A DNA stretch of 64,000 bases. It comes from Methanobrevibacter sp. TLL-48-HuF1. Lineage in GTDB: Archaea > Methanobacteriota > Methanobacteria > Methanobacteriales > Methanobacteriaceae. This document shows positions 2,656-30,263 of this stretch, one piece after another (within the stretch, counting starts at the first letter, position 1; the number at the start of each line of letters is the position of its first letter). Below the pieces are notes generated by a model that saw nothing but the letters and a program-made list of their open reading frames with translations, did no database searches and had not been told where the DNA came from. The translations under genes and the position numbers were made by a program. The stretch lies in NCBI RefSeq assembly GCF_023617305.1, contig NZ_CP081485.1, forward strand, positions 858,501-922,500. The letters run 5' to 3'.

Positions 2656-3585
2656 ATGAGTATAGAAGCTATCAAAGACAAATATGAACGACCAATACTT
2701 TCATTAAGAATTACAATAACAAACAAATGTAATGAAAATTGTTTATACTGCCACCATGATGGGATGGATGATTCTCAAGAGGAAATGAATGCAGATGAAA
2801 TTTACAGAATCTGTAAAATAGCTAAGAATATTGGTGTTAGAAAAATAAGGCTTTCCGGTGGAGAGCCTTTAATAAGAAAAGACATCGTTGAAATTGTAAG
2901 TAAAATAGCCAGTCTTGATTTTGATGACATATCCATTACTTCAAATGGAACATTATTTGGAAAATATGCAAAAGATCTAAAAGAAGCTGGATTAAATAGG
3001 GTAAATATCAGTTTAGATACTTTAAATCCTGAAACTTACAAAAAAGTTACCACTAAAAATCTGCTTGAATCAGCAAAAAACGGAATTCTGAAAGCTGTTG
3101 AAGTTGGCCTTTATCCTGTTAAAATCAATATGGTTTTAATGAAAGGAATAAATGAAAACGAAGTGGATGACATGTTTGAATTTTGTAAAAAACATGGAAT
3201 CATACTTCAGCTTATTGAATTAATGGACAGTGAAAACTGTGACGATGAAAAATTCAGCAGAGATTATCATTATAATTTAGATCCCATCAATGAAAAGTTG
3301 CTTTCCATATGTGATGAAGTCAAAACACGTGAATTTATGCAAAACCGTAAAAAATACTTCATAGACGGCGGAGAAATTGAAGTAGTAAAACCTATTGAAA
3401 ACAGCGACTTTTGTGCAAATTGTACCAGATTAAGAATAACCCCTGACGGAAAAATAAAGCCATGCTTACTTAGAAATGACAATCTGGTAGAATTAATATC
3501 ACATATAAGAAATAATGAATCAGATTCTCAACTAAAAGAAGTTTTCATTAAAGGCATTAACAAAAGAGAGCCTTATAACAATTAA
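2656..3585 (+). CDS. moaA: GTP 3',8-cyclase MoaA (radical SAM, molybdopterin biosynthesis)
   Basis: 309 residues. MoaA converts GTP to 3',8-cyclo-7,8-dihydro-GTP, the first step of molybdopterin synthesis. The radical SAM cluster motif is C25-x3-C29-x2-C32 (CNENCLYC), followed by LSGGEPL. The second, substrate-side [4Fe-4S] cluster ligands are C253, C256 and C270 (CANCTRLR...KPCLL). Length fits archaeal MoaA. The protein ends in EPYNN rather than the Gly-Gly tail that is functionally important in many bacterial MoaA proteins. It lies four bases downstream of the mobB-like gene and is followed closely by the IS1182-like element, so its own terminator may have been displaced. Confidence 0.92.
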
Positions 3586-3697: not shown

Positions 3698-5233
3698 TTA
3701 GTTGTTTTTTGTGTTTATTTCATTGTATATTCTTTTTAGGTTGTGTCCGATTGTATATAGTTTGAATTCTGTGTTTGTGTTTTTTATTCCTGTTGTTGTG
3801 AATTCATGGAGTTTCATATTTTGTTTTATGTGTGCAAATGGTAGTTCTGCTGTTTTTGATCGTTTTTTGTAGATTTTTTGTGCCCAGTCTGTTTCCATTT
3901 TCCGTTGCATTCTGATTTTGGAAGGGTTTCCATAGTCTTGGATTGTTCTGTAGTTCTTTTTCTTGCAGCAGATTTCTTTCATGATGCAGTTTTTGCATTC
4001 GTTTGTCCAGTAGGTTATTCTTTGTTTGTTTTTGTATTCGTATGTTCTTCTTCGATATAAACTTTCTCCCAAAGGGCAGATATAGGTTTCAATTTCTGCA
4101 TCGTAGCAGAAATTGTCTTTTTGGAATGGTTTTTCCCATAGATTATATTTTTTTTCTTTTCTTGAGAGTTTTCTGGTGGATATGTATCCGTCTAAGCCTT
4201 TTTCTTCAAGATATGTTGTGTTTTCATCTGTTGAATATCCATTATCGGCACTGAATTGGAAATTGGAGGGCAATTCATCATAAATTCTGGTTAAATTGTT
4301 TTCTAATTGTTCTATTGATGGAATCAGCTCGAAATGGTCGGTTGGATTTTGTGTAATGTATGAAGATAGGATTATTCCTTTGTATTCGTCCACGATGATT
4401 TGTGCGTTGTAATCCCATTCCCATTTGCCTTTTTTATTCATCATTAAGCGAGCATCTGGGTCGTTAATGCTTATTACATCTTTTGGTGATTCTTTTACTT
4501 TTTCTTCGAGTTCGTTGAGTTTTTTTAAAACTTTTTCTGGATTTTTTTCTGCTTGTTTTAAAAGATTTAAACTTGAAGAACGCAATTTATCTTTGTTTCT
4601 ATTATTTTTAGAAGATTCTTGAATTTCTTTTACTGTTTCTTTGAATTTTTCTTTGTCTGTTAATGATTCTGGAACTGAATTTCCAGATTCATCTCCGAGT
4701 TCCTCATCTTCTTGTTGATCAAGTTCAATACTTTTTTTGAAGTGTTCTTTCATGATTTTGATTTGGTTTTCATCGATTAATTTATTAATTGATGTTTTTG
4801 CTTTGATTTTAGTTCCATCCAAGCTCAAATGATGTATTTTTATTAAATCATTTTCCTTTGCAATTTTGATCGTTGTTTTAAATGCTTCGTCGATTAAATC
4901 AGTATAATCGACTTTAAATCGTGCAATTGTCCGATATGATGGTTTTTCCATTGCTGCAAGATACATATATGCAATGTCAGTTCTTGTTTTTCTCTCTATT
5001 TCTCTTGAAGACAATCCACCATCAAATACGCTCATTAAAATGAGCCTGAGCAATAATTCTCGAGGATAAGCAGATTCACCAGGCTTTCCACGAAATTCCT
5101 GGTTTGCTTTTGAACAATCAATTAAATCAACCACATTTTTAATAAAATAGCACGGATGATCTTCAGGAATCAAATTTCGCAAGTCCATAGGGACCAACAT
5201 AGTCTGATTAATATTATCATCTTTTAAAACCAT
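3698..5233 (-). CDS. IS1182-family transposase
   Basis: 511 residues from the ATG at 5233. An in-frame ATG at 5248 would add five residues, but neither start has a strong ribosome-binding site. The N-terminus (LVPMDLRNLIPEDHPCYFI) and following segment are typical of the IS1182 N-terminal domain. The DDE domain includes HHLSLDGTKIKAK, SADNGYST and FAHIKQNM. A Cys-rich insert lies near the C-terminus (CPLG, CKNC, CCKK), as in many IS1182 transposases. The frame is uninterrupted from end to end, so the element may still be mobile. It is transcribed toward moaA. Confidence 0.9.
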   Translation of the reverse strand: MVLKDDNINQTMLVPMDLRNLIPEDHPCYFIKNVVDLIDCSKANQEFRGKPGESAYPRELLLRLILMSVFDGGLSSREIERKTRTDIAYMYLAAMEKPSYRTIARFKVDYTDLIDEAFKTTIKIAKENDLIKIHHLSLDGTKIKAKTSINKLIDENQIKIMKEHFKKSIELDQQEDEELGDESGNSVPESLTDKEKFKETVKEIQESSKNNRNKDKLRSSSLNLLKQAEKNPEKVLKKLNELEEKVKESPKDVISINDPDARLMMNKKGKWEWDYNAQIIVDEYKGIILSSYITQNPTDHFELIPSIEQLENNLTRIYDELPSNFQFSADNGYSTDENTTYLEEKGLDGYISTRKLSRKEKKYNLWEKPFQKDNFCYDAEIETYICPLGESLYRRRTYEYKNKQRITYWTNECKNCIMKEICCKKKNYRTIQDYGNPSKIRMQRKMETDWAQKIYKKRSKTAELPFAHIKQNMKLHEFTTTGIKNTNTEFKLYTIGHNLKRIYNEINTKNN

Positions 5234-5335
5234 GAATAAAACAACCATAAATATTAATATCTATAATAAAAGATTATACTTCATAGTATATAAAATTAAA
5301 GAAAAATTAGTCAATTAAAATTAGAAAAAAATGTG

Positions 5336-5359: not shown

Positions 5360-5395
5360 TAAAAAAAAGAGGTAAATAGAGTAAAAACTCTATTT
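5360..5395 (-). terminator. Terminator hairpin of the fdhCAB operon
   Basis: A 9-bp stem (AAATAGAGT / ACTCTATTT, 5374-5382 and 5387-5395) with a 4-nt loop contains the fdhB stop codon. On the minus strand it is followed by a T-rich run reaching the IS boundary. Confidence 0.65.
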
Positions 5396-6595
5396 CCAGT
5401 TATCTTTTGGTTTGTGTTCAGTGAATGGAATTGGTTCCCCGTTATCAAATCCAGGGAGATATCCATATACATCACGGATTTTGTTGTTTACTGTACTCCA
5501 TACTTTAGCTACAGGTATTTCACAAGGACAAACTTCAGTACATTGACCACAGTTAGTACAGGAATCTACCATGTGCACCATACGAGTTAAGTGGAAGAAT
5601 GGTGCTGCAGGAGTGTATCCGCCAGGTACCCATTCAGGACCTTCAGCTTCAAGACAGCAGTCATCACAGAAACATAATGGACATGCTTCACGACAACCAT
5701 AACATTTCATACATTTAGAGAATTCGTCTTCATATTCTTTGAATACTTCGATGATATCTCCAGAAGTACCTGCATAATCTGCTTCTTTTTTCTTTGCAGA
5801 TGCAGAGAGCATGAAATTATTAATTTTGTCTCTTATTGCAATTCCTTTTTCGAGTGGTTCTTCAACAGCGATTAAATCAGCTTCAATCACATCATTAAGA
5901 ATATCTGCACCTTTATCAGAGAATACTTCAACAAAAGTAGCTTTTCCTGCTAAAGGACCGATTACTCCCCAGTTACCTAATGCTAAATCTGCGTTACTTG
6001 GTATTTTTAAATCACATCTTTGACAGTTTTCTCTTCTACCCATACCGTCTTCTTCTAAATCTTCAATACCGAAACCTTTTTCCCCTTCTGCAGTTTCCAT
6101 AATGAGTTTACCTTTTGCGATTTCTTCTTTAATTACGTCACTAGGATCTAACTCATAAACATCTCTAATCATTTGCATAGTTGGTACAGGAGGTAATGTT
6201 CCACCACAGTTTACTCCAATCATTATGACGTTGTCTTCGATGATTTTGCCCTTTTTCATTAATTCTCTTATAGACATTGCGTCACAAGGTTTACAGGTAA
6301 CTGCTATTTTCATATCTCTGCAACCGTCTAAGTATTTGTATATGAAACTAGCTAAGTTTACAGTACCACAGTGAATTGAACCTGCAGTTTTAATAACTTC
6401 TTCAGGATCAGTTATAAGGCATGGAACTGCGTCATACAAATCAAATCCTTCTTTTACAGCTACAATACCATCAACAACATTGCTTTCTAAAAGATGTTTC
6501 ATGATAGTTGTAACTACTCCTCCGTATTCACCTTTTTCTTTAATACCTTCGTTGTTAGAGTATGCATAATACATGTCGCTATTTTTTACAGCCAT
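5390..6595 (-). CDS. fdhB: F420-reducing formate dehydrogenase beta subunit FdhB
   Basis: 401 residues. FdhB carries FAD and passes electrons from FdhA to coenzyme F420. Two ferredoxin-type motifs are visible at C295/C298/C301/C305 ([12 protein letters not shown]) and C346/C349/C352/C356 ([12 protein letters not shown]), with a further Cys cluster CFCDDCC just after the first. The FrhB/FdhB-type N-terminal domain is present ([13 protein letters not shown] near residue 25, CKPCDAM near 101, GRRENCQRC near 186). It is the last gene of the minus-strand fdhC-fdhA-fdhB operon, six bases after fdhA. Formate is a main electron donor for gut Methanobrevibacter, and this subunit couples it to F420-dependent steps. 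Confidence 0.95.
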
Positions 6596-6601
6596 TTAAA
6601 T

Positions 6602-8659
6602 CTACTCCTCAATTTTTTCTACTTTAATAGCACAAGCTTTTAACTCTACCATTTTACATTTTGGATCAAAAGAATCAGAGTTAGTTAACATGTTAGCTGC
6701 ACATTCAGTAAAGTGCATAGGTATGTTTACAATACCTTTCTTAATGTCATCAGTTACTCTTGCAGGAATTTCAATTTCCCCTCTTCTGGAGCTAGCTTTA
6801 ACTATTTCATTATTGAGAATTCCTAATTCTTTAGCATCTTCTGTATTGATTTCTATAAATCCAGTTTTAACTTCGTTGTCTAAAGTTTTACATCTTCTAG
6901 TCATAGCTGCGTGATAGTGGAATAAAACCCTAGTAGTAGTTAATAACAATGGATATTCTTCATCAGGAACTTCTACAGGACCTCTGTGTTCTAATGCTTG
7001 GAAAATACCTAATCCATCAGGATGTGCAAATTTATCTTTGTGCATTAATGGTTGACATGGGTCATCAACAGATGGACATGGCCAGTGAAGAGCTTCAGGG
7101 GTGTCTAATCTTTCACGGTTCATACCAGCAAAGATTGGAGCACATTCTCTGATTTCTTCAAAGATTTCTTCAGCAGATTCATAATGGAATTTTTCTCTTG
7201 GAACTCCCATTCTAACTGCGATTTCTTCCATAATTTTCCAATCTAACATTGCGCCTTCAGGTGGTTCTTGAGCTTTGTGTAAACATTGTACTCTTCTTTC
7301 ACCGTTGGTGAATGTTCCTTCTTGTTCACCCCAACCTGCTGCAGGTAAAACAACATCAGCACATTGTGCAGTATCAGTCATGAATAATTCTTGAACAATT
7401 AACATGTCTAAGTTAGCTAATGCTTCTTTAGTATGTTTGATATCTGCATCAGAAAGTACTGGGTCTTCTCCATGGATGTATAATACTTTTAAGTCACCAG
7501 CATGAGCTGCATTCATCATTTCCACTAAGGTTAAACCTGGTTTTGCAGGAAGGTTTGTTCCATAGTATTCGTTGAACCAGTCAGTAGTTTCTTGATCTGC
7601 TACTTTTCTGTAACCTACATAATCTGAAGGTAATGCACCCATATCACAAGCACCTTGTACGTTGTTTTGTCCTCTTAATGGGTTTACACCAGTACCTTCT
7701 CTTCCGATGTTACCGGTTAACATAGCTAAGTTAGCAGTAGACATTACGTTATCTGCACCGTGAGAGTGTTCAGTAATACCTAATGAGTAAACAATAGCTG
7801 CTTTATCAGCTTTAGCATATTCAATAGCTAATTCTTCTATGACTTCTGGTGCAATGTGAGTGATTTCAGATACAGTTTCAAGGTCGTATTTTTGTACTGT
7901 TTCTTTAAGTTCATCGAAACCTTTTGTTCTGTTTTTAATAAATTCGTCATCTTGTAAGCCATTATCAATAATAACTTTAATCATACCATTCATTAATGCT
8001 ACGTCAGTACCTGTTTTGAATTGTACATATTCATCAGCTATTTTAGCAGTTGGAGTGTATCTTGGATCTAAAACAACTAATTTAGCACCATTTTTTTGAG
8101 CTTGGATTAATTTACGACCAAACAATGGGTGTGCTTCCATGTTGTTTGAACCAATACAGAATATGTAGTCTGCTTCTTTAATACTGTCGAATCCGTTGGT
8201 CATAGCACCTGAACCAAAGGTGGTAGCAAGACCAGCTACAGTAGGTCCGTGACAAATACGTGCACAGTGGTCAACGTTTTGAGTACCACAAGCTACCCTA
8301 GCTAATTTTTGAGTAATGTAAATGTTTTCGTTTGGTGAACGAGCACATGCATAGAATCCAACTTTATTTGGATCATCATCAGATACTTCTTTAAGTTTAT
8401 TAGCAACTAAATCTAAAGCTTCATCCCAAGAAGCTTCCCTAAATTCTCCATTTTCTTTGATTAATGGAGTTGTTAATCTATCTTCCCTATTAATAAATTC
8501 ATACCCAAAGTTACCTTTTGGACATACTTTTCCTTCATTTACTGGGTGTCTTTTATATGGTTCGACACCTACAATTTTATCATCCTTTACAACGAAGTTA
8601 AGTCCACATCCAGTACCACAGTATGGACAAATTGTTGGGACATATTTTATCTCAACCAT
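6602..8659 (-). CDS. fdhA: F420-reducing formate dehydrogenase alpha (catalytic) subunit FdhA
   Basis: 685 residues. FdhA oxidises formate at a bis-pterin Mo or W centre. The N-terminal [4Fe-4S] ligands are C11, C14, C18 and C46 (CPYCGTGC...VCPKGN). The metal ligand is Cys136 in [14 protein letters not shown], so this is the cysteine and not the selenocysteine form. Downstream signatures such as [16 protein letters not shown] and the C-terminal molybdopterin-dinucleotide-binding domain ([13 protein letters not shown]) are intact. GGAGAT precedes the ATG at 8659. It lies between fdhC and fdhB. A hairpin and a possible second TATA-like element (TTTATATTAATT on the minus strand) lie between fdhC and fdhA. 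Confidence 0.96.
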
Positions 8660-8745: not shown

Positions 8746-9534
8746 CTAACTTGCATCTTTAAGGTAAGTTATATAATAAATACAACCTACAAATATTGCT
8801 GCACCAATTATGTTTCCAATAGTTACTGGAATAAGATTTCCAAAGATAGTTGCCCAGTTTACACCTTCAGCACCTAAGAACATACCTAATGGAATAAAGA
8901 ACATGTTTGCAACACTGTGCTCGAATCCGATGGTTACGAACGCCATAATTGGGAACCATATACCAAAGATTTTACCGATGATATCATCAGATGCTAATGC
9001 TAAGTATACAGCTAAACAAACAAGCCAGTTACAACCGATACCTCTAATGAGTGCTACATCCCATGATAATCCGACTTTTGTAACGGCAACTTTAGTAGCT
9101 CCTGCAGCAATTACCGGATCAGTAGCAATACCGCTCATATATGCTAATACATAAGCAACAAATAAAGCACCAACAAAGTTGAAAATCCAACTGATAACCC
9201 AGTTTTTACAAAGACCACCAACAGATGCTTTACCATCTAAAACACCCATAACCATGTACATTACATTACCAGTGAACAATTCAGATCCTGCAAGTACAAC
9301 AAGCATCAAACCAACAGGGAACACTGCACCAAAGACAAATTTAGATAATCCGAGAGGACAACCTGCTGCAAGCATTCCTGCATTTGCAACTTCAGCTAAC
9401 AATCCACCAAATGCAATATATGCACCTGCTAAGAAGGATAACAATATTACATTAAGAACATTTGCGGAACTTTTTGTTCCACCTATTGAAGACACAGTTT
9501 TTGCTGTATCTACAGGACTTTTAAAAGAACTCAT
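8746..9534 (-). CDS. fdhC: Formate transporter FdhC (FNT family)
   Basis: 262 residues from the ATG at 9534, chosen because GAGGTTG lies seven bases upstream; an in-frame ATG at 9564 has no such site. FNT proteins are pentameric channels for formate or nitrite with six helices. Family signatures are visible: [54 protein letters not shown] and [13 protein letters not shown], the last containing the conserved central-pore His. It is the first gene of fdhCAB, so uptake and oxidation of formate are encoded together. Confidence 0.95.
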
Positions 9535-9555
9535 TAATATCAACCTCATATTTAA

Positions 9556-9573
9556 TTTTTCCAAAGGGAAAAA
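9556..9573 (-). promoter_or_regulatory. Leader hairpin upstream of fdhC
   Basis: A 7-bp stem (TTTTTCC / GGAAAAA, 9556-9562 and 9567-9573) with a 4-nt loop lies about 20 bp upstream of the fdhC start codon, in the predicted leader. Confidence 0.3.
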
Positions 9574-9640
9574 ATTTATAATACATATGAAAATCTCCCT
9601 TAAATTCTAATTCATAGTATTATGACTATAAGTATGTAAA

Positions 9641-10068: not shown

Positions 10069-10377
10069 TTAACCCGATACTAATACTAACTTACCAGTAG
10101 TTGGATCTTCATACACTTTACCCACTTCACTGTATCCGCTATCTTCCATACCCCCGGAATCAGTGTAATTCTGTTCAAAAGTATCAGCACTGGAAACATC
10201 CTGAGTAGCAGGTGTTTGAGATATTAATTCCGGATTTGCAGACAATGCCATAATAGCAAAAATTAAAAATCCAAGTGCCAGAACCAGCATTGCATCAGAC
10301 AAGTTAGATAAACCACTCATCGGATCGTCATCTAAAGATTCACTAATTCTACGTCTTTTTCTAAGCATAATACTCAC
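10069..10377 (-). CDS. DUF2149-family membrane protein, ExbD/TolR-like topology
   Basis: 102 residues from a GTG at 10377 that overlaps the TGA of the upstream channel gene (GTGA), suggesting translational coupling; an ATG three codons on is the alternative. The layout is a very basic N-terminus (RKRRR), one transmembrane helix at about residues 29-47 and an acidic extracellular tail. Asp28 stands immediately before the helix in SDAMLVLALGF. This resembles the FIDxxLVLL segment of ExbD/TolR, where the Asp carries protons. I recall DUF2149 as a methanogen family next to ExbB-like genes. An ExbD-equivalent role is inference. The short tail lacks the folded periplasmic domain of ExbD. Confidence 0.75.
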   Translation of the reverse strand: MSIMLRKRRRISESLDDDPMSGLSNLSDAMLVLALGFLIFAIMALSANPELISQTPATQDVSSADTFEQNYTDSGGMEDSGYSEVGKVYEDPTTGKLVLVSG

Positions 10378-11015
10378 TTCTTATTTAAAGTTTCCAATTC
10401 TGCTTCAGCAATAGTTTCAAGAACTATTAAATCTGATTCATACCATTGTTTTTTAAATTTAGATACCAAATAAGCAAGTGCTCCAATAACCAGACCAGTA
10501 ACAGTAGTATCAAATGCAACAGTTAATGCTTCAGCTAATGTAACAATATCTCCTGAACCTAATGCTGCCAAACCAGGACCTAACGGAATTAAAGTACCTA
10601 AAAGACCTAAAATAGGACCTACTCTTACAAGAACATCTGTCTTATTAGTACTTTTAATTAATTTAGTTTCTTCTGCTGAAATCAATTCACTAGCTAATGC
10701 TTTTCTGGCTTCACATCCGATATCATGATTATTAGCTATTTTAATAAGTACATTTTTTTGAAAATCAAATAAATTGCTTTCTTCTATATGTTTTTCAATT
10801 TCGCTATGAGACTGTGAAAATGAAACATTCCTTATTAAACATTCCAATTCTTCAGAGCTGATTGGTTTTCTTGAAATACGTTCATTAATAAGCCCGCCAA
10901 TACATAATATAACAACAACTAAAAAGACCACAATCAAAATCATTACCGGAGTCAGTAAGCTTTCAGACACTATATGAATAAATGAAGATAATGTTTCAGT
11001 TCCTTGAATTATCAT
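10374..11015 (-). CDS. MotA/TolQ/ExbB-type proton channel protein
   Basis: 213 residues. ExbB/TolQ proteins form a pentamer that uses the proton (or sodium) gradient, with ExbD/TolR, to do mechanical work. TM1 is about residues 19-42 and is followed by a cytoplasmic helical stretch. TM2 (about 131-151) and TM3 (about 165-188) include GPILGLLGTLIPLGPGLAAL and LAEALTVAFDTTVTGLVIGAL, which match the family signature closely. Upstream DUF2162 and downstream DUF2149 genes are 11 bp away and overlapping, so the three form an operon. In a pseudomurein-walled archaeon with no outer membrane the load driven by this motor is unknown. Confidence 0.88.
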   Translation of the reverse strand: MIIQGTETLSSFIHIVSESLLTPVMILIVVFLVVVILCIGGLINERISRKPISSEELECLIRNVSFSQSHSEIEKHIEESNLFDFQKNVLIKIANNHDIGCEARKALASELISAEETKLIKSTNKTDVLVRVGPILGLLGTLIPLGPGLAALGSGDIVTLAEALTVAFDTTVTGLVIGALAYLVSKFKKQWYESDLIVLETIAEAELETLNKK

Positions 11016-11026
11016 AAATTACCTCA

Positions 11027-11686
11027 CTATCTTTTTTTCAATTGTTTATCATTATAATACAATCCCACAATCAAAATAAAAATCATTAAAATAATAACAT
11101 ATACCAGCTGATAAGTAGGAGTCAAAATCAGATAAGCACTAAACATATTATAGTCCAAACCTTTGACAGACCAGTAAGTTAATCCTAAAATAAAAATTAA
11201 AATTGATTCTAAAATCATAAACTCCCCAACAATAAGGGAATACTCTCTTTTTGCATAAAACAATAATTTAGAAAGCTGATAAACTACAAACATTATTATA
11301 ACTAAAAATAAAGTTAATAATAAGCTATTAAATATTGAAAATCCATCAATATGAGCATCAATACATAATATAGATATGTAAAATAACACAGCAGTTATCA
11401 AAGTAACTTCTTTTAGATTATTCTCCTTTTTTAAATAAATCCATGTTAAAACAAATAAAACAGCAGCCATTACCACAAACAGATATCCGAAATTACCTGC
11501 TAAAAAAGATAAACTATCTTTAAAATAGCCTGAAATACTGTTAACACCAATCAATAAAATTCCTGATAAAAGTGAAATAAGAATTGCCTTTGAATTATTA
11601 ATTTTAAAATTTCCTAAAAAAAGACCCATATTCACTGCAAATAATGCAACAAATATTAATAAATATCCCTCAAACAAACTTAACAT
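11027..11686 (-). CDS. Polytopic membrane protein, probable DUF2162 family
   Basis: 219 residues and about seven hydrophobic helices: 4-24, 32-52, 58-84, 92-112, 115-142, 150-172 and 185-210 by eye. Charged loops are short, and the C-terminus is basic (NDKQLKKR). I assign DUF2162 from the topology and from the linkage with ExbB-like and DUF2149 genes that I recall in methanogens; no catalytic motif is visible. It is the first gene of the three-gene operon and has its own TATA box. It could be a transporter or a channel scaffold coupled to the ExbB/DUF2149 pair. Confidence 0.6.
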   Translation of the reverse strand: MLSLFEGYLLIFVALFAVNMGLFLGNFKINNSKAILISLLSGILLIGVNSISGYFKDSLSFLAGNFGYLFVVMAAVLFVLTWIYLKKENNLKEVTLITAVLFYISILCIDAHIDGFSIFNSLLLTLFLVIIMFVVYQLSKLLFYAKREYSLIVGEFMILESILIFILGLTYWSVKGLDYNMFSAYLILTPTYQLVYVIILMIFILIVGLYYNDKQLKKR

Positions 11687-11734
11687 TTCAACAGCTCATT
11701 AACTCTTTATTATGAGTAATAATATTTACTACCT

Positions 11735-11746
11735 GAATATATAAAC
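11735..11746 (-). promoter_or_regulatory. Candidate TATA box of the DUF2162-ExbB-DUF2149 operon
   Basis: GTTTATATATTC on the minus strand, about 50 bp upstream of the ATG at 11686. A T-rich terminator of the preceding beta-helix gene lies just upstream (11762-11790), so the operon looks separately transcribed. Confidence 0.5.
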
Positions 11747-11789
11747 ATATCGTTAAGTTTTTTAAAAAAAGTAAAAAGAAGAAAAATGA

Positions 11790-13748
11790 TTATTTGCCAT
11801 TTTTCTTTTCAATCATTGATTTTATATCATTTCTATAATACAACGCAATGACAGCTATTATCAGTAATATTAAAATACCTATTCCTGCAATCTTTACAAC
11901 TTCCTCATCAATATCTATAACTTTTGCAACAGACTGAGATGAACTTGCAGATGTGGAAGCAGAAGCACTGTCACTAGCACTAGATTCACTTGCAGATGCA
12001 GAACTTTGAGCAGATGCTGCTGAAGCAGAATTAGCTTCAGACACACTTAAAGAACCATCACCAGATCCTCCACTGCCAGAAGCAGTTGCAGAACCTTGAC
12101 CTTGTTGTGTGTTAGATGAAGTTCCATTACCCTGACTGCCAGTATTTGGATTTGCTGGACTGTCTGGATTTGTAGGTTTAAAATCAGCAGGAGGAACAGG
12201 ATAAGTTGGTTTAATATATTGCTCATAATCGGACAGTTTATAAGTTTCCTGACCAGATATGCCATAATAACCAAATTTTACATTACCATTTCCATTATTG
12301 ACATGTATAAGACCTTTTCCATTACTGATTATTGAGTATCCCCAATTTTTTCCATCATTCAATGAAGTTTTCCACGGAATAGCAGTAGTAATTCTTTCAT
12401 CTACAGATACAAGTATAGAACTTTTATCAACTTGCTTAACATTAAAACCTAATAATTTGGTTTTTATTCTACTACAGATTTTAACAAATGACTCTTTGCT
12501 TCCATCAGTAAGTACAGGACCCATTTTAAAAGCAGGATAATTATCATTTTCCCTGCCTAAAATATTAAACTCCTTATTAAGTCCAATAAAATTATATCCA
12601 ACACCCATCAATCCGTCTTCACCAGATCTTACATAATTTTCACCAACATTAAGACCTACATCATTACTGTGAATTGCATTGTTGGTAATATATAACTCAG
12701 AATCTCCTTTACAGTCAATATTGATTCCCTTATAATTATTTGAAATATTATTATCCGTTATGGTTGTGTAAGGCCCTGATCCATGAAGATTTATTCCATA
12801 TTCTTTGTTGTATGATATTTGATTATGTTCAACAGTTGTATATTCTACACCTTTATCAAAATAAATACCATATCCTCCTTTAGTAATACAATTAGAGTAG
12901 ATAACAGTATTAGTTGAATCTTTAAGATAAATACCAAAACTGTTTGAATTAGAAATTAAATTTCCAACAATATTTGCTTTATCTGTATCAATTACACTAA
13001 TGCCACACTTACTATTAATTATATCATTATTAAGAATGGTAACATTATTAGTTCCCTTTAACAAAATTCCTTCAGAACCACCTTTAACAATTAAGTTATA
13101 AATAACTGTCCCTGCAGCTTTTGATGATTTAATTGTGAAAACTGGATTTTTAGAATTTCCATTTAAAGTAGATTTAACTGAACTATAAATATTAACCGGA
13201 TTTTTAGATATTGTTAATGATATATTTTCATAGTTTTTACCCGCAAAAATTATATTTTCCCCTGCATTTGCAGAATCAATGATTTTTTGAATTTCAATAT
13301 TGGACAATCCTTCTGGAATAATAGTTCCTTTAACATCAGACACATAAACATAATTGTAATGAGTTAAAATTCTATCGTAAGAATCTGTAAAACTAGTAGA
13401 AATAACATATGTTCCCTGATTTAATCGTATATCCAAACTTGCAACACCATGATTATCAGTTACTTTATTGTATTTGACTCCATTAATATCAAAGATGACT
13501 GTTTTATTAAAAACTGGAGTTCCATCATCATAAATAAGTGTAGCATTATAAGATTCACCTTTAGAAAATACGGACACATCAGAAGTATTTAATTGAACAT
13601 ACTCTATTTCTATATTATGCAATACTTCATTTCCTGTCTGAGATGAATTAGATACATCAGCAGCAGTATTATTAACATCTTCAGCAGATACAATATTTAT
13701 TGCTAAGAACAATATTAAAATTGAAATGAAAAACACTTTTTTAACTAT
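11790..13748 (-). CDS. Membrane-anchored surface protein: Ig-like module + NosD-type beta-helix + Ser/Ala linker + C-terminal TM
   Basis: About 652 residues. In order: a signal peptide (VKKVFFISILILFL...SA); one Ig-like module with the INGVKY signature (about 50-145); a right-handed parallel beta-helix with PbH1/NosD-type repeats (about 155-395); a further domain to about 520; a low-complexity Ser/Ala-rich linker; and a transmembrane helix at about residues 616-633 of the GTG form with a basic cytosolic tail (KKNGK). So it is held in the membrane, unlike the other ALPs here. Start choice: a GGGGGTG Shine-Dalgarno lies five bases before an in-frame ATA at 13748; the first standard start is a GTG at 13736, too far from it and lacking the basic n-region. 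It lies next to the ExbB/DUF2149 operon. Confidence 0.8.
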   Translation of the reverse strand: MVKKVFFISILILFLAINIVSAEDVNNTAADVSNSSQTGNEVLHNIEIEYVQLNTSDVSVFSKGESYNATLIYDDGTPVFNKTVIFDINGVKYNKVTDNHGVASLDIRLNQGTYVISTSFTDSYDRILTHYNYVYVSDVKGTIIPEGLSNIEIQKIIDSANAGENIIFAGKNYENISLTISKNPVNIYSSVKSTLNGNSKNPVFTIKSSKAAGTVIYNLIVKGGSEGILLKGTNNVTILNNDIINSKCGISVIDTDKANIVGNLISNSNSFGIYLKDSTNTVIYSNCITKGGYGIYFDKGVEYTTVEHNQISYNKEYGINLHGSGPYTTITDNNISNNYKGINIDCKGDSELYITNNAIHSNDVGLNVGENYVRSGEDGLMGVGYNFIGLNKEFNILGRENDNYPAFKMGPVLTDGSKESFVKICSRIKTKLLGFNVKQVDKSSILVSVDERITTAIPWKTSLNDGKNWGYSIISNGKGLIHVNNGNGNVKFGYYGISGQETYKLSDYEQYIKPTYPVPPADFKPTNPDSPANPNTGSQGNGTSSNTQQGQGSATASGSGGSGDGSLSVSEANSASAASAQSSASASESSASDSASASTSASSSQSVAKVIDIDEEVVKIAGIGILILLIIAVIALYYRNDIKSMIEKKNGK

Positions 13749-14131
13749 ATTTTCACCCCCTTTTTAAACTACTCACCTAATTACAGAATGAAAATTGTAA
13801 TTACATACTTGATTATATCGACAGGTACTATAAATAAGTATGTAATTTAATTATTACATAATATTGTAATCTAAATTTTACACCATATTATAAAAATGAC
13901 ATATTTTTTATTCAAAAATTAAATGAAAATCTGAAAAATTTTTATAAAATAATTAAAAAAATGAACTAATACTTATAATAAAAATAACTATTGCTGAAAG
14001 AATAAAGAAAAACTGTTATATACTAAATAAAAACATAATTAAAATTACTAATAATACCTTAATGATAGTCATTTCTTATTTTATCGTTAGATGTTATTAG
14101 CTAATTTATAACTTTATGGAGAGAAATAAAG
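13749..14131. other. Divergent intergenic region between the anchored surface protein and the first ALP
   Basis: It holds the dyad at 13799-13847 near the left end, a plus-strand TATA-like TTATATAC near 14016, and the ALP ribosome-binding site GGAGAG at the right end. The remaining AT-rich sequence shows no gene. Confidence 0.5.
13799..13847. promoter_or_regulatory. Dyad repeat flanking a putative promoter
   Basis: Perfect 12-bp inverted repeat (AATTACATACTT at 13799-13810, AAGTATGTAATT at 13836-13847) with a 25-bp spacer holding a minus-strand TATA-like ATTTATAGT. It lies 50-100 bp upstream of the anchored beta-helix gene, and so is a candidate operator for it. Confidence 0.4.
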
Positions 14132-24362: not shown

Positions 24363-24941
24363 TTATTCATCATCTTCAATTATTTCATAGTAAGAACCTT
24401 CTGCACATGAAATACAGATAGGTTTTCCGCCTCTTACCAAATGACGTCCGTCAGTTACTTTTTCACCACAGACAGAACACCATGCAGAAGTGTGAGGTTT
24501 GCCCGGCATTTGAGATGGAGTTAATTCTACTTTAACTTTTTCTACATTAAATAATTCTTCAGGAGGAGTGACTCTGAAACGATGAATCATTTCTTCTCTT
24601 GTTTCTTTAGATTTGTTTTGTTTATTTGCATCAGCGTCAGATACCCTTAAAGCTTCACCAGTATCCATATTATAGAAAGTTACTGCAAATTTACCATAAT
24701 ACATTTGTTTTAATGAACGTTTACCCATGGAACATTTTGTAACAGCCTGAACTGCATCAGCCATACATCTGTCGATTTCTAAAAAGACAATTAAGTTTTT
24801 GTGTCTTTGATTTAATTCCATTCCCATTAAATCTAAACCATACATAGCTAATTTAGTTCCAATAGCTATTCCGCCACAAATTTCTCCGTGGAAATCGCCT
24901 GCTTTTGCTAACTGTTCATCATAGTCTTCTTCACTCATCAT
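24363..24941 (-). CDS. FmdE-family protein (formylmethanofuran dehydrogenase subunit E-like)
   Basis: 192 residues. The N-terminal domain begins with FHGEICGGIAIGTKLAMYGL and contains DRCMADAVQAVTKCSMGKRSL, both hallmarks of the FmdE family. The C-terminal zinc-ribbon-like part has CSVCGEK and CISCAEG. FmdE proteins accompany molybdenum or tungsten formylmethanofuran dehydrogenases but also occur alone with metal transporters; their exact role is not settled. Here it is the last gene of an ABC-importer operon, 11 bp after the ATPase gene, and only one gene set away from fdhD. GGTGAT precedes tandem ATG codons at 24941 and 24938. A role in Mo/W handling is inferred from this context. Confidence 0.85.
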   Translation of the reverse strand: MMSEEDYDEQLAKAGDFHGEICGGIAIGTKLAMYGLDLMGMELNQRHKNLIVFLEIDRCMADAVQAVTKCSMGKRSLKQMYYGKFAVTFYNMDTGEALRVSDADANKQNKSKETREEMIHRFRVTPPEELFNVEKVKVELTPSQMPGKPHTSAWCSVCGEKVTDGRHLVRGGKPICISCAEGSYYEIIEDDE

Positions 24942-24952
24942 TTTTTATCACC

Positions 24953-25756
24953 TTATAAATCTAATTTTAAGTTTGTTTTCATAGGTACACAAACTTTTCT
25001 ATTTTCATCTAATTCAATTAATTTAACATCAATAGAGTAAGCTTCTTTTAAGTTATCTTCAGTTACCACATCTTCAGGAGTTCCAAAATCAATGAATTTT
25101 TTATTTTTCATGATAGCTACTTTAGTAGAGCTTAAAAATGCATGATCCGGAAAATGTGATGACATTATAACAGACAGACCTGATTCAGCCAGCCTGTCAA
25201 TGATTTCCAGAAGCTTAATCTGATTACCAAAATCCAAATGAGATGTCGGTTCATCCAATATTAAAATATCAGGCTGCTGTGTAAGCACTCTGGCTAAAAA
25301 TACCAGCTGTCTTTCACCACCACTGAGATTGGTATATTCCTTATCTTTTAAATCATATATTCCCAATGTTTTTAATGATTTTACAGCTATTTTTTCATCT
25401 TCAGCTTTTGGAGATTGAGCTAAATTAAGATAAGGAGCTCTGCCCATCAGTACAACATCAAAAACTGTAAAGGGAAAAGACGGAATATGCGATTGTGGAA
25501 TATAACCAATATGTTTGGAAATCTGAGAAAAGGATAATGTTTTAATATTTTCACCATTAACTAAAATTTCACCGGAATCAGTATCATGCAATCCATTTAG
25601 ACATTTGATTAAAGTTGTTTTTCCTGTTCCGTTCGGTCCAAGAATACATAACACATCTCCTTTTTTTATGGAAAAACTAATATTTTCGAATATTAAATTA
25701 TCCTCATAAGAAAAGGATATATTGTTAACTTCCAATATTTTATCTTCTACGACCAT
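24953..25756 (-). CDS. ABC transporter ATPase, FecE/BtuD/MolC type
   Basis: 267 residues with all ATPase motifs: Walker A GPNGTGKTT, Q-loop YIPQSH, signature LSGGERQLV, Walker B ILILDEPTSHLD and a switch His in MSSHFPDHA. This subclass powers type II importers for iron-siderophores, cobalamin or molybdate/tungstate. It overlaps the end of the permease gene by about 10 bp and is followed by the FmdE gene. The AAGGGGT ribosome-binding site supports the ATG at 25756. The substrate cannot be read from the ATPase. Confidence 0.92.
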   Translation of the reverse strand: MVVEDKILEVNNISFSYEDNLIFENISFSIKKGDVLCILGPNGTGKTTLIKCLNGLHDTDSGEILVNGENIKTLSFSQISKHIGYIPQSHIPSFPFTVFDVVLMGRAPYLNLAQSPKAEDEKIAVKSLKTLGIYDLKDKEYTNLSGGERQLVFLARVLTQQPDILILDEPTSHLDFGNQIKLLEIIDRLAESGLSVIMSSHFPDHAFLSSTKVAIMKNKKFIDFGTPEDVVTEDNLKEAYSIDVKLIELDENRKVCVPMKTNLKLDL

Positions 25757-26760
25757 TCTGAATACCCCTTTCTAAGTAAATATAAGAATATTGGAACCCC
25801 AATAACTGCTGTTAAAATTCCTATAGGTATTTCAATTGAAATTACTGCTCTGGATATATTATCAATTAAAAGTAAGAAACTGGCTCCTAAACTTAAAGAA
25901 GCAGGAATAAGAATCTTATTGTCCGGACCTACAATCATTCTTGTCATGTGGGGAATAACCAAACCTAACCATCCAATAATTCCACTAACAGAAACTGCTG
26001 CTGAAGTAAGTAAAGTACAAGCAGCAATTACAATTAACCTGGTTCTTGAAGGATTTAAACCTAAAGCCTGTGCCTCTTCATCTCCCATAGACAATAAATT
26101 AATACGCCATCTAAGCAACATCAGAATAACCACACCAATAATTATCGGAACTGAAATCATAATTAATTTATCAACAGTAATGGAAGCCAGACTTCCCATT
26201 AACCAGTATACAATTTCAGGTAATTTGTCATCAGGATCAGCTATGAATTTAACTGCAGAAACTAACGCTCCGAAAAATGCTGAAATAGCTACTCCAGATA
26301 AAACTAAAACCAGTATTCCGCCGTTTTTATAAGATTTTGAAATTAAATATGTAACTGATACTGAAATTAAACCAAATACAAATGCAAATATTTGAGTTAC
26401 AACATTTAATCCGGAAAGTAAAATAGCCAGTGCCGCTCCAAAACCTGCACCATTAGACACTCCAAGTAAATCAGAAGACACTAATGGGTTTTTAAAGATT
26501 CCCTGAAATGCGGAACCTGCCATAGCTAATGCTGCCCCTACAACTAATGCTCCAATAATACGGGGGAGCCTTATTTCAAAAACAATTGTTGTAATAGTTT
26601 GAGAAACTTCCAGCTGCGGAAATATAGGACATAATATGGTTTTAATCACATCAACAGGATCAATCGGATATCTTCCAATTAAAAAAGATGCGAAAAAAAG
26701 AATTATAGGAAGGAACACTAAAAGCACAATGCCTAATATCTCCTTATTTTCCTTATTCAT
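25747..26760 (-). CDS. ABC transporter permease, FecCD/BtuC/MolB type
   Basis: 337 residues with about ten helices, typical of the FecCD family. The signatures AMAGSAFQGIFKNPLVSSDLLGVSNGAGFGAAL and WLGLVIPHMTR appear in part as LLGVSNGAGFG and GWLGLVIPH. The gene lies nine bases after the substrate-binding protein gene and overlaps the ATPase gene, so the three are one operon. With FmdE behind it and fdhD divergent in front, a MolB-like molybdate/tungstate permease is the favoured but unproven reading; iron or cobalamin remain possible. Confidence 0.92.
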   Translation of the reverse strand: MNKENKEILGIVLLVFLPIILFFASFLIGRYPIDPVDVIKTILCPIFPQLEVSQTITTIVFEIRLPRIIGALVVGAALAMAGSAFQGIFKNPLVSSDLLGVSNGAGFGAALAILLSGLNVVTQIFAFVFGLISVSVTYLISKSYKNGGILVLVLSGVAISAFFGALVSAVKFIADPDDKLPEIVYWLMGSLASITVDKLIMISVPIIIGVVILMLLRWRINLLSMGDEEAQALGLNPSRTRLIVIAACTLLTSAAVSVSGIIGWLGLVIPHMTRMIVGPDNKILIPASLSLGASFLLLIDNISRAVISIEIPIGILTAVIGVPIFLYLLRKGYSEWS

Positions 26761-26769
26761 ATAAATCCC

Positions 26770-27870
26770 TTACAGGTCTGACTCCTTAAGTCCGGAATCA
26801 AGTAATATTTGCTTAGCTTGCTCATCACTTAAATCAAAGTGATAAAATTCACTGTAAAACTCTTGAGTAGTGGAAACCATGTCTATATCCTGATACTGAT
26901 CTGGATAAATACATTTTGCCGTCCATGGAACACCAATAATCATATTTGCTCCAACCGGCCTGTCAAACCATTTAAACGGAGACTGCGGTGATAAATACAC
27001 ATCATGATTTTTAACTGCTGTAATACTTGCCCAGTTTGAATCATTATAAACTTTTCCGTAGAAATCAGGGTTTGTAGTGATAATAACATCAGGATTCCAT
27101 TTAATAATTTGTTCCATAGATACCTGAATACCTGCAGTAGTATTTCCCTGAGCTAAAGAATTAGCTACATTTTCCCCACCAACCAGATCAATCAACTGCC
27201 CATGAGTGGAATTGGAAGGATTTGTCTGAAGTCCGTCATTGCCCTGAGCATAATATACTGTTTTCTTATCAGTAATCTGGCCGGATTTCTGATGTACCAT
27301 GTCCAAATATTTGTCGTTGAAGTCTGTTAATTTCTTAGCATTGTCCTGTGCTCCCAAAACATCTCCAATAAAAGTTATTGACCCGTCAACTTTCTCAACA
27401 TCGGTAGTGTCATTAACTGCAACAACAGGAATTTCACCAAATTTATCCTGACGTTCCTGAACAGTAGCCAAATCTCCATCTCCACCTTCATCAATAGATT
27501 CAATAACCATATCCGGTTCAGAAGCTATAAATTCTTCATAACTACCATCCTGTGTTCCATACCATCCTCCAACAACAGGGAGATTTGCATATTGGGACGG
27601 AACATACTTAAGTTCATCATCATTCCACTGGAAATTAACTGCAGTTAACTTCTCCGGAGCAATCATATAAATTACAGTAGTCATTGGAGGGCTGGTAGCT
27701 ACAACATTTCCAACAGAAGCAGGTATCTGTACTGTTCTGCCAACCATATCAGTTATATTTTTAGATCCTACTGTTTCCACAGTAGAAGGAGTTAAAAATA
27801 AGTGAGCAGCAACTCCACATATAACTAAAACAGCTAAAATTAAAATAATAATCTTACTCTTCTTTTCCAT
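26770..27870 (-). CDS. ABC transporter substrate-binding protein (FecB/BtuF/MolA type)
   Basis: 366 residues from the ATG at 27870; an in-frame start at 27894 has no ribosome-binding site. The N-terminal hydrophobic segment (IIILILAVLVICGVAAHLFL) lacks a good lipobox, so it probably acts as an uncleaved membrane anchor. The two-lobed type III binding-protein fold is indicated by DMVGRTVQIPASVGNVVAT at the start and EQIIKWNPDVIITT near the middle. It feeds the downstream permease/ATPase. Proteins of this group bind ferric chelates, cobalamin or, as in Haemophilus MolA, molybdate/tungstate; the neighbouring fdhD and FmdE genes favour the last. The gene is divergent from fdhD with only about 100 bp between them. 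Confidence 0.88.
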   Translation of the reverse strand: MEKKSKIIILILAVLVICGVAAHLFLTPSTVETVGSKNITDMVGRTVQIPASVGNVVATSPPMTTVIYMIAPEKLTAVNFQWNDDELKYVPSQYANLPVVGGWYGTQDGSYEEFIASEPDMVIESIDEGGDGDLATVQERQDKFGEIPVVAVNDTTDVEKVDGSITFIGDVLGAQDNAKKLTDFNDKYLDMVHQKSGQITDKKTVYYAQGNDGLQTNPSNSTHGQLIDLVGGENVANSLAQGNTTAGIQVSMEQIIKWNPDVIITTNPDFYGKVYNDSNWASITAVKNHDVYLSPQSPFKWFDRPVGANMIIGVPWTAKCIYPDQYQDIDMVSTTQEFYSEFYHFDLSDEQAKQILLDSGLKESDL

Positions 27871-27971
27871 AAATATCACTAAACATTTAGTCAAATACTG
27901 ATATGAATTTATTTACTTAAATAAATAAATAATTTACTGAAAGTCATATTCAAAAATAAAGAAGGAATTAT

Positions 27972-28721
27972 ATGAAACAGATAATGGAAGAAAAAGCCCA
28001 AAATTATAAAAATGGAAAAATAACCGATGTTACAGAAAATGTTGTTAAGGATTCCACCATAACATTAACAATAAACAATAAAATCAAACGCAGCCTGTCT
28101 GCAATTGAAGATTCCCTTAAAGAATTTGCCGTCGGTTATCTATTTAATGAAAATATGGTAAAAACATTAGAAGACATAGAAAAAATCGAAATTGACGGAA
28201 ACAAGATTAATGTAGAAATTAATGATACTCTGCTTAAAACAAAAGAAACTGTTTTGTGTTCTGATTCTGCAGGGGGCTGGAGAAGTAAAATAAACAATAT
28301 TGAACCTGTAACTTCCAATTTTCAGGTAAAATCTGATGAGCTAATTGAGAGAATTGAAGAGCTGAAAAATAATGCACAAATCTGGCAGGCAACTGGAGGA
28401 ACACATGTGGCAGGAATTGTTTATAAAGACAATTTCATTGTAAAAGAAGATGTAAGCAGACATGTAGCTGTAGATAAAGTAATTGGATATGGAATATTAC
28501 ATGATTATGATTTAAGCAACTGTTATGTAATTTACAGTGGCAGAATGCCTGCAGATATGGTAATAAAAATAGTCAGAGCTGGAATACCTGTACTTGCATC
28601 AAATGCTGCTCCAGCATATTCAGGATGTGAAACAGCTAAAAAAGGAAATGTAACTCTTGTTGGATTTTTAAGAGGTCAGAGATTTAATGTTTACAACAAT
28701 AAAAATAGAATAATATTCTAG
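27972..28721 (+). CDS. fdhD: Formate dehydrogenase sulfurtransferase FdhD
   Basis: 249 residues. FdhD passes sulfur from a desulfurase to the pterin-bound metal and is needed to make formate dehydrogenase active. Signatures are clear: ATGGTHVAGI, EDVSRHVAVDKVIGYG, SGRMPADMVIKIVRAGIPV and SNAAPAYSGCETAKK. The CxxC sulfur-transfer loop of E. coli FdhD appears here as C96-S-D-S99, with only one Cys. The gene is divergent from the ABC importer, sharing a ~100-bp control region, and so may respond to the same signal. It lies well away from fdhCAB. It converges on hxlB with eight bases between stop codons. Confidence 0.92.
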   Translation: MKQIMEEKAQNYKNGKITDVTENVVKDSTITLTINNKIKRSLSAIEDSLKEFAVGYLFNENMVKTLEDIEKIEIDGNKINVEINDTLLKTKETVLCSDSAGGWRSKINNIEPVTSNFQVKSDELIERIEELKNNAQIWQATGGTHVAGIVYKDNFIVKEDVSRHVAVDKVIGYGILHDYDLSNCYVIYSGRMPADMVIKIVRAGIPVLASNAAPAYSGCETAKKGNVTLVGFLRGQRFNVYNNKNRIIF

Positions 28722-29393: not shown

Positions 29394-30263
29394 ATGAAAC
29401 TCAAAAGCAAAGGCATCATCAATTTAGACATAAACGGTGAGATTTATGACTATAAATTATATCAAAGTCTGAATTCATTAGCCAAAACAGGGTCTCAGCG
29501 AAAATCAGCTAAAGAATTAAATATATCACATACGGTTTTTAATAGAAGATTGCTCAAAGCTGAAGACAAGTTAGGAGTTAAAATTACTCGAAAACAGGGA
29601 AATGGTACTTTATTAACTCCTGCAGGCAAATCCTTACTTGAAGAGTATAAAAAATACCTGATTCAAATAGATAAAACTTCTGAAATCAATATCTGCGGCG
29701 GCCATATCAGTACAGGGCTTTTGGAAAGTATTGATGCTCCTTTTAATGCCAATATATACAGCAGCAATGATGAAGATGCATTTAAACTAGCTAAAAGAGG
29801 AGTTGTGGATTTATTAACATTAGATGATCCATTAATAGCTTTTGAGAGAGATTTAAATATGGTTCCAATAGCTTATGATTATCTGGTTTTAATATCCAGT
29901 CCAGATTCCAAACCCATTAAAAGTATTCATGAACTGGAAGGACTGGATTTTGTAAATGTTCAGGGTTCCGCTCAAAGACTGGCCTGGAATACATTAGAAC
30001 ATTATGATATCGATTATAACATTAAAACAAAAGTAAATTCACAATTTGATGCATTTAAAATAGTCAGAAATTCTGAAAATTTATATAGTTTTTTAAATGC
30101 CAGTTATTTCAAAGGAAATGACATCTTAAAGTTTGATACAAGACATATCATCAGTTTAATAAAAGTAAATGATGAAAAAGAAGAACTGGACCAATTCATA
30201 AAATATTTATTAACTGATGGACAAACAGCTATTAAAAATCAGGGATTTATCCCAATGGATTAA
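29394..30263 (+). CDS. LysR/ModE-like transcriptional regulator with a substrate-binding-type effector domain
   Basis: 289 residues. A winged helix-turn-helix lies at about residues 23-75 (GSQRKSAKELNISHTVFNRRL...LGVKI...LLTPAGK), close to LysR and ModE N-termini. It is followed by a periplasmic-binding-protein-like effector domain (VPIAYDYLVLISSP, VNVQGSAQRLAWN). No ribosome-binding site is seen, fitting a leaderless mRNA from the adjacent TATA element. It lies beside Mo/W genes (importer, FmdE, fdhD), so an oxyanion- or pterin-responsive role is attractive, but the effector cannot be identified from sequence; hxlB, its divergent neighbour, is another candidate target. Confidence 0.78.
   Translation: MKLKSKGIINLDINGEIYDYKLYQSLNSLAKTGSQRKSAKELNISHTVFNRRLLKAEDKLGVKITRKQGNGTLLTPAGKSLLEEYKKYLIQIDKTSEINICGGHISTGLLESIDAPFNANIYSSNDEDAFKLAKRGVVDLLTLDDPLIAFERDLNMVPIAYDYLVLISSPDSKPIKSIHELEGLDFVNVQGSAQRLAWNTLEHYDIDYNIKTKVNSQFDAFKIVRNSENLYSFLNASYFKGNDILKFDTRHIISLIKVNDEKEELDQFIKYLLTDGQTAIKNQGFIPMD

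Follow-up and report, generated by a model that had tools for sequence, protein, structure and literature searches.

In the current understanding, ExbB-type motors serve to do work on the outer membrane. Here we analyse such a motor, encoded by a DUF2162-ExbB-DUF2149 gene set, in Methanobrevibacter sp. TLL-48-HuF1, a gut methane-making archaeon without an outer membrane. The stretch under study (the window) comprises 64,000 nucleotides of contig NZ_CP081485.1 (positions 858,501 to 922,500), and window coordinates are used for its genes. We propose that the window motor is an accessory energiser of a FecCD-type importer, the likely cargo of which is molybdate/tungstate or another metal for the adjacent formate dehydrogenase; the chances that this proposal holds appear to us evenly balanced.

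Among described systems, the iron-regulated hmu operon of Bacteroidota encodes the CobN-like HmuS, the putative permease HmuT, the ExbB-like HmuU and the DUF2149 protein HmuV (PMC10434189, PMC13227078). The gene set is induced under iron starvation (PMC10434189). It has been suggested that HmuU and HmuV energise the outer-membrane receptor and that HmuTUV carries heme over the inner membrane (PMC12583661, PMC13227078). A recent study noted that no use is known for archaeal HmuS/CobN homologues and that complete hmu operons are lacking in the species concerned (PMC12583661).

The window motor is designated type B here and its paralogous module type A. Like the hmu operon, the window locus has an ExbB-DUF2149 pair behind a polytopic membrane protein, and type-A modules often also have a CobN/HmuS-like partner. 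Unlike in hmu, type B in the window is accompanied by a FecCD importer and an FmdE protein, and the host has no outer membrane.

Gene content and the two motor types

The genes are arranged on the minus strand between 13736 and 10069 in the order beta-helix gene, DUF2162, ExbB, DUF2149. An earlier reading of the DNA without database searches (the sequence-only reading) had claimed this four-gene set, and all four are present with Pfam matches for each, that of DUF2162 being below the cut-off. The surface beta-helix protein (11790..13736, 648 aa) matches Beta_helix (E 7.5e-20). It is followed by a polytopic membrane protein with seven predicted helices (11027..11686; DUF2162, E 1.2e-6, 28.5 bits versus a cut-off of 34.4), which by its sequence is best regarded as a diverged family member and lacks the CPCC motif that its paralogue has. 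Next are an HmuU-like channel subunit of the ExbB/TolQ/MotA type (10374..11015; MotA_ExbB, E 1.2e-9, 38.5 bits versus a cut-off of 22.9) and the HmuV-like one-helix partner (10069..10377; DUF2149, E 2.2e-10, above the cut-off). For DUF2149, a GTG start with a GTGA overlap had been assumed. The ATG nine bases on, at 10368, is the likelier start because nearly all relatives begin there (Met in 97 of 102); the overlap is therefore gone, and the Asp that had been numbered 28 becomes residue 25. The beta-helix gene is separated from DUF2162 by a gap of 103 bases and therefore need not be on the motor transcript. No riboswitches were found near the operon at Rfam gathering thresholds.

Two DUF2149 genes, three MotA_ExbB proteins and one ExbD are encoded in the source genome, the third ExbB pairing with the canonical ExbD (1.408 Mb). 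The genome has two copies of the DUF2162-ExbB-DUF2149 motor with the HmuU-HmuV make-up, probably including HmuT; the position of the DUF2162 gene suggests that its product is HmuT-like. The type-A module of this genome (38.5–40.2 kb) lies behind a surface protein of 997 aa; a CobN-like protein of 1671 aa, which has a signal peptide and a C-terminal anchor, is encoded nearby. A transposase-like open reading frame (ORF) was observed between the CobN-like and 997-aa genes (L003, 3515–5026), and another beside the window motor locus, near fdhB (3698–5248).

Among 60 Methanobrevibacter genomes, DUF2149 scores form two classes of about 70–85 bits (type A) and 35–45 bits (type B). Identity to the window ExbB is 69–95% for type B across the genus and 39–50% for type A. 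The inner-membrane part of hmu was found in 84 of the phylum's 91 near-complete genomes; the genome scan for distant relatives returned almost only Methanobacteriaceae. Variants were also observed. At L224 (9884–15988), L201, L219 and L236 the order is DUF2149-DUF2162-ExbB, followed by a surface protein of about 1280 aa that ends in a different anchor (AYN[LD]...NAPVLII), while in the modules at L213, L239, L241, L245, L248 and L259, where no DUF2162 is recognisable, ExbB is immediately preceded by a giant surface protein.

Linkage to a FecCD-type importer and its cargo

Type-B neighbourhoods were read at 37 Methanobrevibacter loci. At 28 of these, two of them cut by a contig end, the genes for a substrate-binding protein (SBP), FecCD, FecE, FmdE, DUF2162, ExbB and DUF2149 stand together, with FmdE directly upstream of DUF2162. 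At eight loci, the window among them, the beta-helix gene takes this upstream place. The sequence-only reading overlooked that the window also holds the four importer genes of the motor's ancestral block, on the motor's strand (27894–24363), separated from the motor by the beta-helix gene and four adhesin-like genes. They encode a membrane-anchored, MolA-like SBP (26770..27894; Peripla_BP_2, E 3.5e-26, and PDB matches), a FecCD-type permease (25747..26760; FecCD, E 1.7e-88), a FecE-type ATPase (24953..25756; ABC_tran, E 7.4e-34, and position in the block) and an FmdE-domain protein with a C-terminal zinc finger and no signal peptide (24363..24941; FmdE, E 6.8e-28; zf-dskA_traR). FmdE likewise lies beyond an adhesin block at L074 and L126, and the simplest reading is that the ancestral importer-motor block received an insertion. 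Most FmdE-family genes adjoin genes for metal-ion transporters (PMC2954224).

The SBP and motor B also occur together. In 37 Methanobrevibacter genomes both were found in 23, the motor alone in one (a genome that is 75% complete), the SBP alone in three and neither in ten. In one SBP-only genome (G007) the contig stops before the expected motor position. G010 retains both motor B and importer on separate contigs.

Among PDB relatives of the window SBP, MolA (HI_1472, 3psa/3psh; E 8.7e-22) is the best characterised, with further matches to 4pag (E 1.9e-47) and 4ovk (E 4.4e-26); BtuF follows far behind (E 3.5e-5). MolA binds molybdate/tungstate (PMC4031551). The window importer resembles MolBCA of Haemophilus influenzae in its FecCD permease, ATPase and Peripla_BP_2 SBP, as well as in this relationship to MolA, which is one of sequence similarity only. 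It differs from MolBCA in its membrane-anchored SBP, its FmdE partner and its linkage to an ExbB motor.

The surroundings of the motor point in the same direction as MolA. Directly downstream lie minus-strand genes for the formate transporter FdhC (8746..9564; Form_Nir_trans, E 8.4e-83) and for a formate dehydrogenase, with the alpha subunit FdhA, a molybdenum/tungsten (Mo/W) enzyme (6602..8659; NCBIfam Fdh-alpha, E 3.4e-284), and the beta subunit FdhB (5390..6595), assigned by FrhB-type (F420-hydrogenase-beta) similarity and its place after fdhA. The window further contains, on the plus strand, fdhD for the sulfurtransferase of formate dehydrogenase (27972..28721; fdhD_narQ, E 3e-61) and the molybdenum cofactor biosynthesis genes mobB (1602–2651; mobB, E 1.8e-32) and moaA (2656–3585; moaA_archaeal, E 1.2e-115). 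Downstream of motor B, fdhCAB was found at 11 of the 37 loci and modABC at four (ModA confirmed); in G029, the importer and FmdE genes run directly into fdhAB. Our best guess from these sequences is that the window importer carries Mo/W.

Several observations weigh against this proposal. Downstream genes at most type-B loci are unrelated to molybdenum. To our knowledge, no ligand is recorded for 4pag and 4ovk, which outscore MolA. The SBP, permease and ATPase also resemble NCBIfam models of IsdE, BtuC/BtuF and heme/corrinoid ATPases, so that heme, cobamide or a siderophore is a possible cargo. The co-occurrence of SBP and motor (Fisher P 8e-6) is uncorrected for shared ancestry. Finally, G029 and G011 keep the importer while no motor was found in them; the motor is therefore accessory and not essential for import.

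Another explanation is that the module takes part in the uptake of iron, heme or corrinoids, as thought for hmuTUV, and that the Mo/W neighbourhood is accidental or stems from wider metal needs of formate metabolism. The resemblance to heme and corrinoid models, the response of hmu genes to iron starvation (PMC10434189) and the CobN/HmuS-like proteins that adjoin paralogue modules at about half of 99 loci are in its favour. However, no CobN/HmuS-like partner was seen beside type B at any of the 37 loci, fdh, fdhD, moaA, mobB, modABC and FmdE genes recur around type B, and the SBP match to MolA is many orders of magnitude better than those to BtuF and IsdE. We consider this explanation unlikely for the window copy.

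For the module as a whole, metals other than Mo/W come into play. CobN was found within five genes at 51 of the 99 loci, which are mostly type A (two by weak matches), and other type-A loci have CbiM, a component of cobalt/nickel transporters, or a surface protein with FmdE domains. Given such varied neighbours, the module goes along with several metal systems. DUF2162-ExbB-DUF2149 stands behind CbiM and a small anchored protein at L263 (6905–10291), L187 (3635–7151) and L258 (77–3211). These small proteins show AHG[VA]D right after the signal peptide, and L263 and L187 additionally have one with AHPGHG in this place, possibly a metal-binding N-terminus. The FmdE-bearing anchored surface proteins (about 970–1000 aa) were observed beside type A at L097 (11826–14828) and L103 (16192–19098), their FmdE domains apparently being outside the cell.

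Two further features of the window concern regulation. A LysR-like regulator (29394–30263) adjoins fdhD and is a candidate Mo/W sensor; such a regulator was also observed beside the importer in relatives (L076, L079, L089, L121, L325, L326). The sequence TTACATACTT occurs three times in the window (9630–9639, 13801–13810, 13836–13845), confined to the regions upstream of fdhC and upstream of the beta-helix gene, where it forms an inverted pair. It was dropped as a shared promoter motif, as relatives do not conserve it.

Anchored surface proteins beside the motors

The beta-helix protein consists of a signal peptide, an Ig-like domain, a parallel beta-helix, a Ser-rich linker, the juxtamembrane stretch KVIDIDEE and a C-terminal transmembrane (TM) helix. 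It shares beta-helix, Ig-like repeats and signal peptide with the adhesin-like proteins (ALPs) of Methanobrevibacter, but its four ALP neighbours have no C-terminal TM anchor. Among window ORFs of at least 500 aa, it alone has a strongly hydrophobic C-terminal segment (hydropathy 2.96 versus at most 1.2), which bears out the claim that it is the only C-terminally anchored ALP-like protein in the window.

Orthologues scoring above 200 bits were found in six of 61 genomes, with the best 20 candidates per genome scored, and all lie directly upstream of motor B. More distant homologues are placed directly downstream of DUF2149 (G004), about 16 kb from the motor on the same contig (G026), or directly behind SBP-FecCD-FecE-FmdE with motor B on another contig (G010); in a fourth genome, G015, neither motor B nor the SBP was found. 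These differing placements around one system argue for a functional tie. The linkage of beta-helix gene and motor thus stands for one clade and three other genomes, and a role of the beta-helix protein as general partner is not supported, since the importer neighbours the motor at 28 of the 37 loci.

In each of nine comparisons with homologues, conservation of the beta-helix protein is highest in its last 48 residues. In the distant homologues the anchor is 44–62% identical, versus 18–49% for the folded body, and follows the pattern [AV]K-x-[IL]-x-[IL]-acidic residues, TM, YY[RK]-x-D-[IV].

A second anchor is found on the large surface proteins beside type-A modules. These proteins have unrelated domains and a common end of 45 aa, K-[AS]-Y-E-[VI]...TM...GY, in which about 30 residues, the TM helix among them, separate the opening box from GY, and a basic tail closes the chain. 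Searches of Pfam and NCBIfam gave no model that covers this anchor, only generic LPXTG-anchor and other marginal matches. The source genome has 12 box-anchor proteins, mostly away from motor genes (G000:C1 28202, 956117, 1253674, 1506212, 1758452 and seven others; L281, L305–L315). When both profiles were run on the same 152 genomes, strong anchor matches (E <1e-6) were obtained in 116 of the 136 genomes that have a match to DUF2149 versus one of the 16 that have none (Fisher P 2e-10, uncorrected for ancestry or completeness). G032, counted among the 16, does possess motor B, but its DUF2149 sequence passes into a run of Ns. Near-complete genomes without motor and anchor include G020, G120, G148 and G157. 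The motor occurs without a strong anchor match in 20 genomes, the anchor without the motor almost never. This pattern resembles what a TonB-box arrangement would give; it is also possible that the anchor is generic and was merely inherited together with the motor. The window beta-helix protein was rejected as a member of the KAYEV-anchor family because its profile did not detect it at E 0.1, a further point against our proposal. Its anchor may be a diverged form, the similarity being visible only by eye.

Given these proteins, the motor could work on surface architecture, that is, on adhesin handling or wall remodelling, with the importer a mere neighbour. In the M. smithii-like clade the nearest neighbours are indeed surface proteins, wall proteins are numerous among the partners of type A, and the source genome encodes 12 members of the box-anchor family. 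However, the commonest neighbour is the importer and not a surface protein, and the partners of type A have domains of the chelatase (CobN) or FmdE kind or sit with CbiM, which points to metals. We therefore regard a purely architectural role as rather improbable. The sequence-only reading had suggested that the motor energises a surface process, either uptake or adhesin handling. With the importer as the commonest motor neighbour, uptake fits better and adhesin handling less well. What the motor drives is thereby narrowed to metal uptake, for the window copy most likely that of Mo/W, and C-terminally anchored wall proteins are its probable load.

The motor proteins and the proposed mechanism

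The ExbB/TolQ-type channel is confirmed by fold as well as by domain. The top Foldseek matches of the ExbB AlphaFold model (pLDDT, the predicted local distance difference test, 87) are E. coli ExbB 5zfp/5sv0 (probability 1.00, TM-score about 0.6–0.67). All structure predictions are of single chains. In 49 homologues, the motifs GPxLGLxGTLIP (with Thr141) and AF[DN]TT (with Thr170/171) show no variation, or almost none; from motif position, we take these Thr residues to be the counterparts of E. coli ExbB pore residues. DUF2149 has an Asp in N-L-[VS]-D-A-M-L-V, at the start of its sole helix. This residue is invariant in 102 of 102 distinct sequences, so the conservation expected by the sequence-only reading was found. 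Its description of DUF2149 as ExbD-like found no support in terms of homology: comparison of 102 DUF2149 with 30 archaeal ExbD sequences by hhalign gave a probability of 1.9%, DUF2149 was rejected as an ExbD homologue, and the likeness is therefore positional only. About 50 residues follow the helix, too few for an ExbD-like outer domain. The DUF2162 model (pLDDT 78.6) has seven helices, and no significant fold match was found in the PDB (best E 0.2).

The window system thus resembles ExbB-ExbD-TonB and TolQ-TolR-TolA in its channel with the E. coli ExbB fold and in a small partner whose single helix opens with Asp. It differs in DUF2149, which shows no detectable homology to ExbD and lacks the ExbD outer domain, and in its proposed load, a C-terminally anchored wall protein. 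No TonB/TolA counterpart was identified at the window system, where no search for TonB was made. That there is no ion-driven motor, with ExbB acting as a scaffold and DUF2149 serving assembly or anchoring, would suit the missing ExbD homology and the short stretch after the helix, but is highly improbable with the ExbB fold and invariant Thr residues kept and the Asp present in every DUF2149 sequence.

The motor is probably ion-driven, and we infer ion conduction, stoichiometry, cargo and load as follows. ExbB would assemble as a pentameric channel with the single DUF2149 helix inside and DUF2162 as a further membrane partner. Ions crossing the invariant Asp would move DUF2149 and the membrane-anchored partners. 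The force would be spent outside the membrane, to free metal cargo from binding proteins or proteins of the wall or to pass it on from them to the importer. For the M. smithii-like clade, the likely load would be the beta-helix protein, coupled via its conserved juxtamembrane segment and helix.

Tentatively, and as something less likely than not, we further propose that single-membrane methanogens possess a TonB-like system without an outer membrane, in which ExbB and DUF2149 act on box-anchored wall proteins to strip metals and metallo-cofactors or deliver them through the pseudomurein wall. Such a system could cover CobN/HmuS-like, FmdE, beta-helix and other wall proteins with motor-specific versions of the box.

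Taken together, the inner-membrane part of hmu is widespread in methanogens and tied to different metal systems, and its occurrence parallels that of an anchor shared by wall proteins. If this anchor is the coupling site, it would give a testable answer to what the motor acts on without an outer membrane, and a way into the question of how methanogens of the gut acquire molybdenum, tungsten, nickel, cobalt or tetrapyrroles. If true, this would also bear on the bacterial hmu motor, as the part shared with archaea would need no outer membrane.

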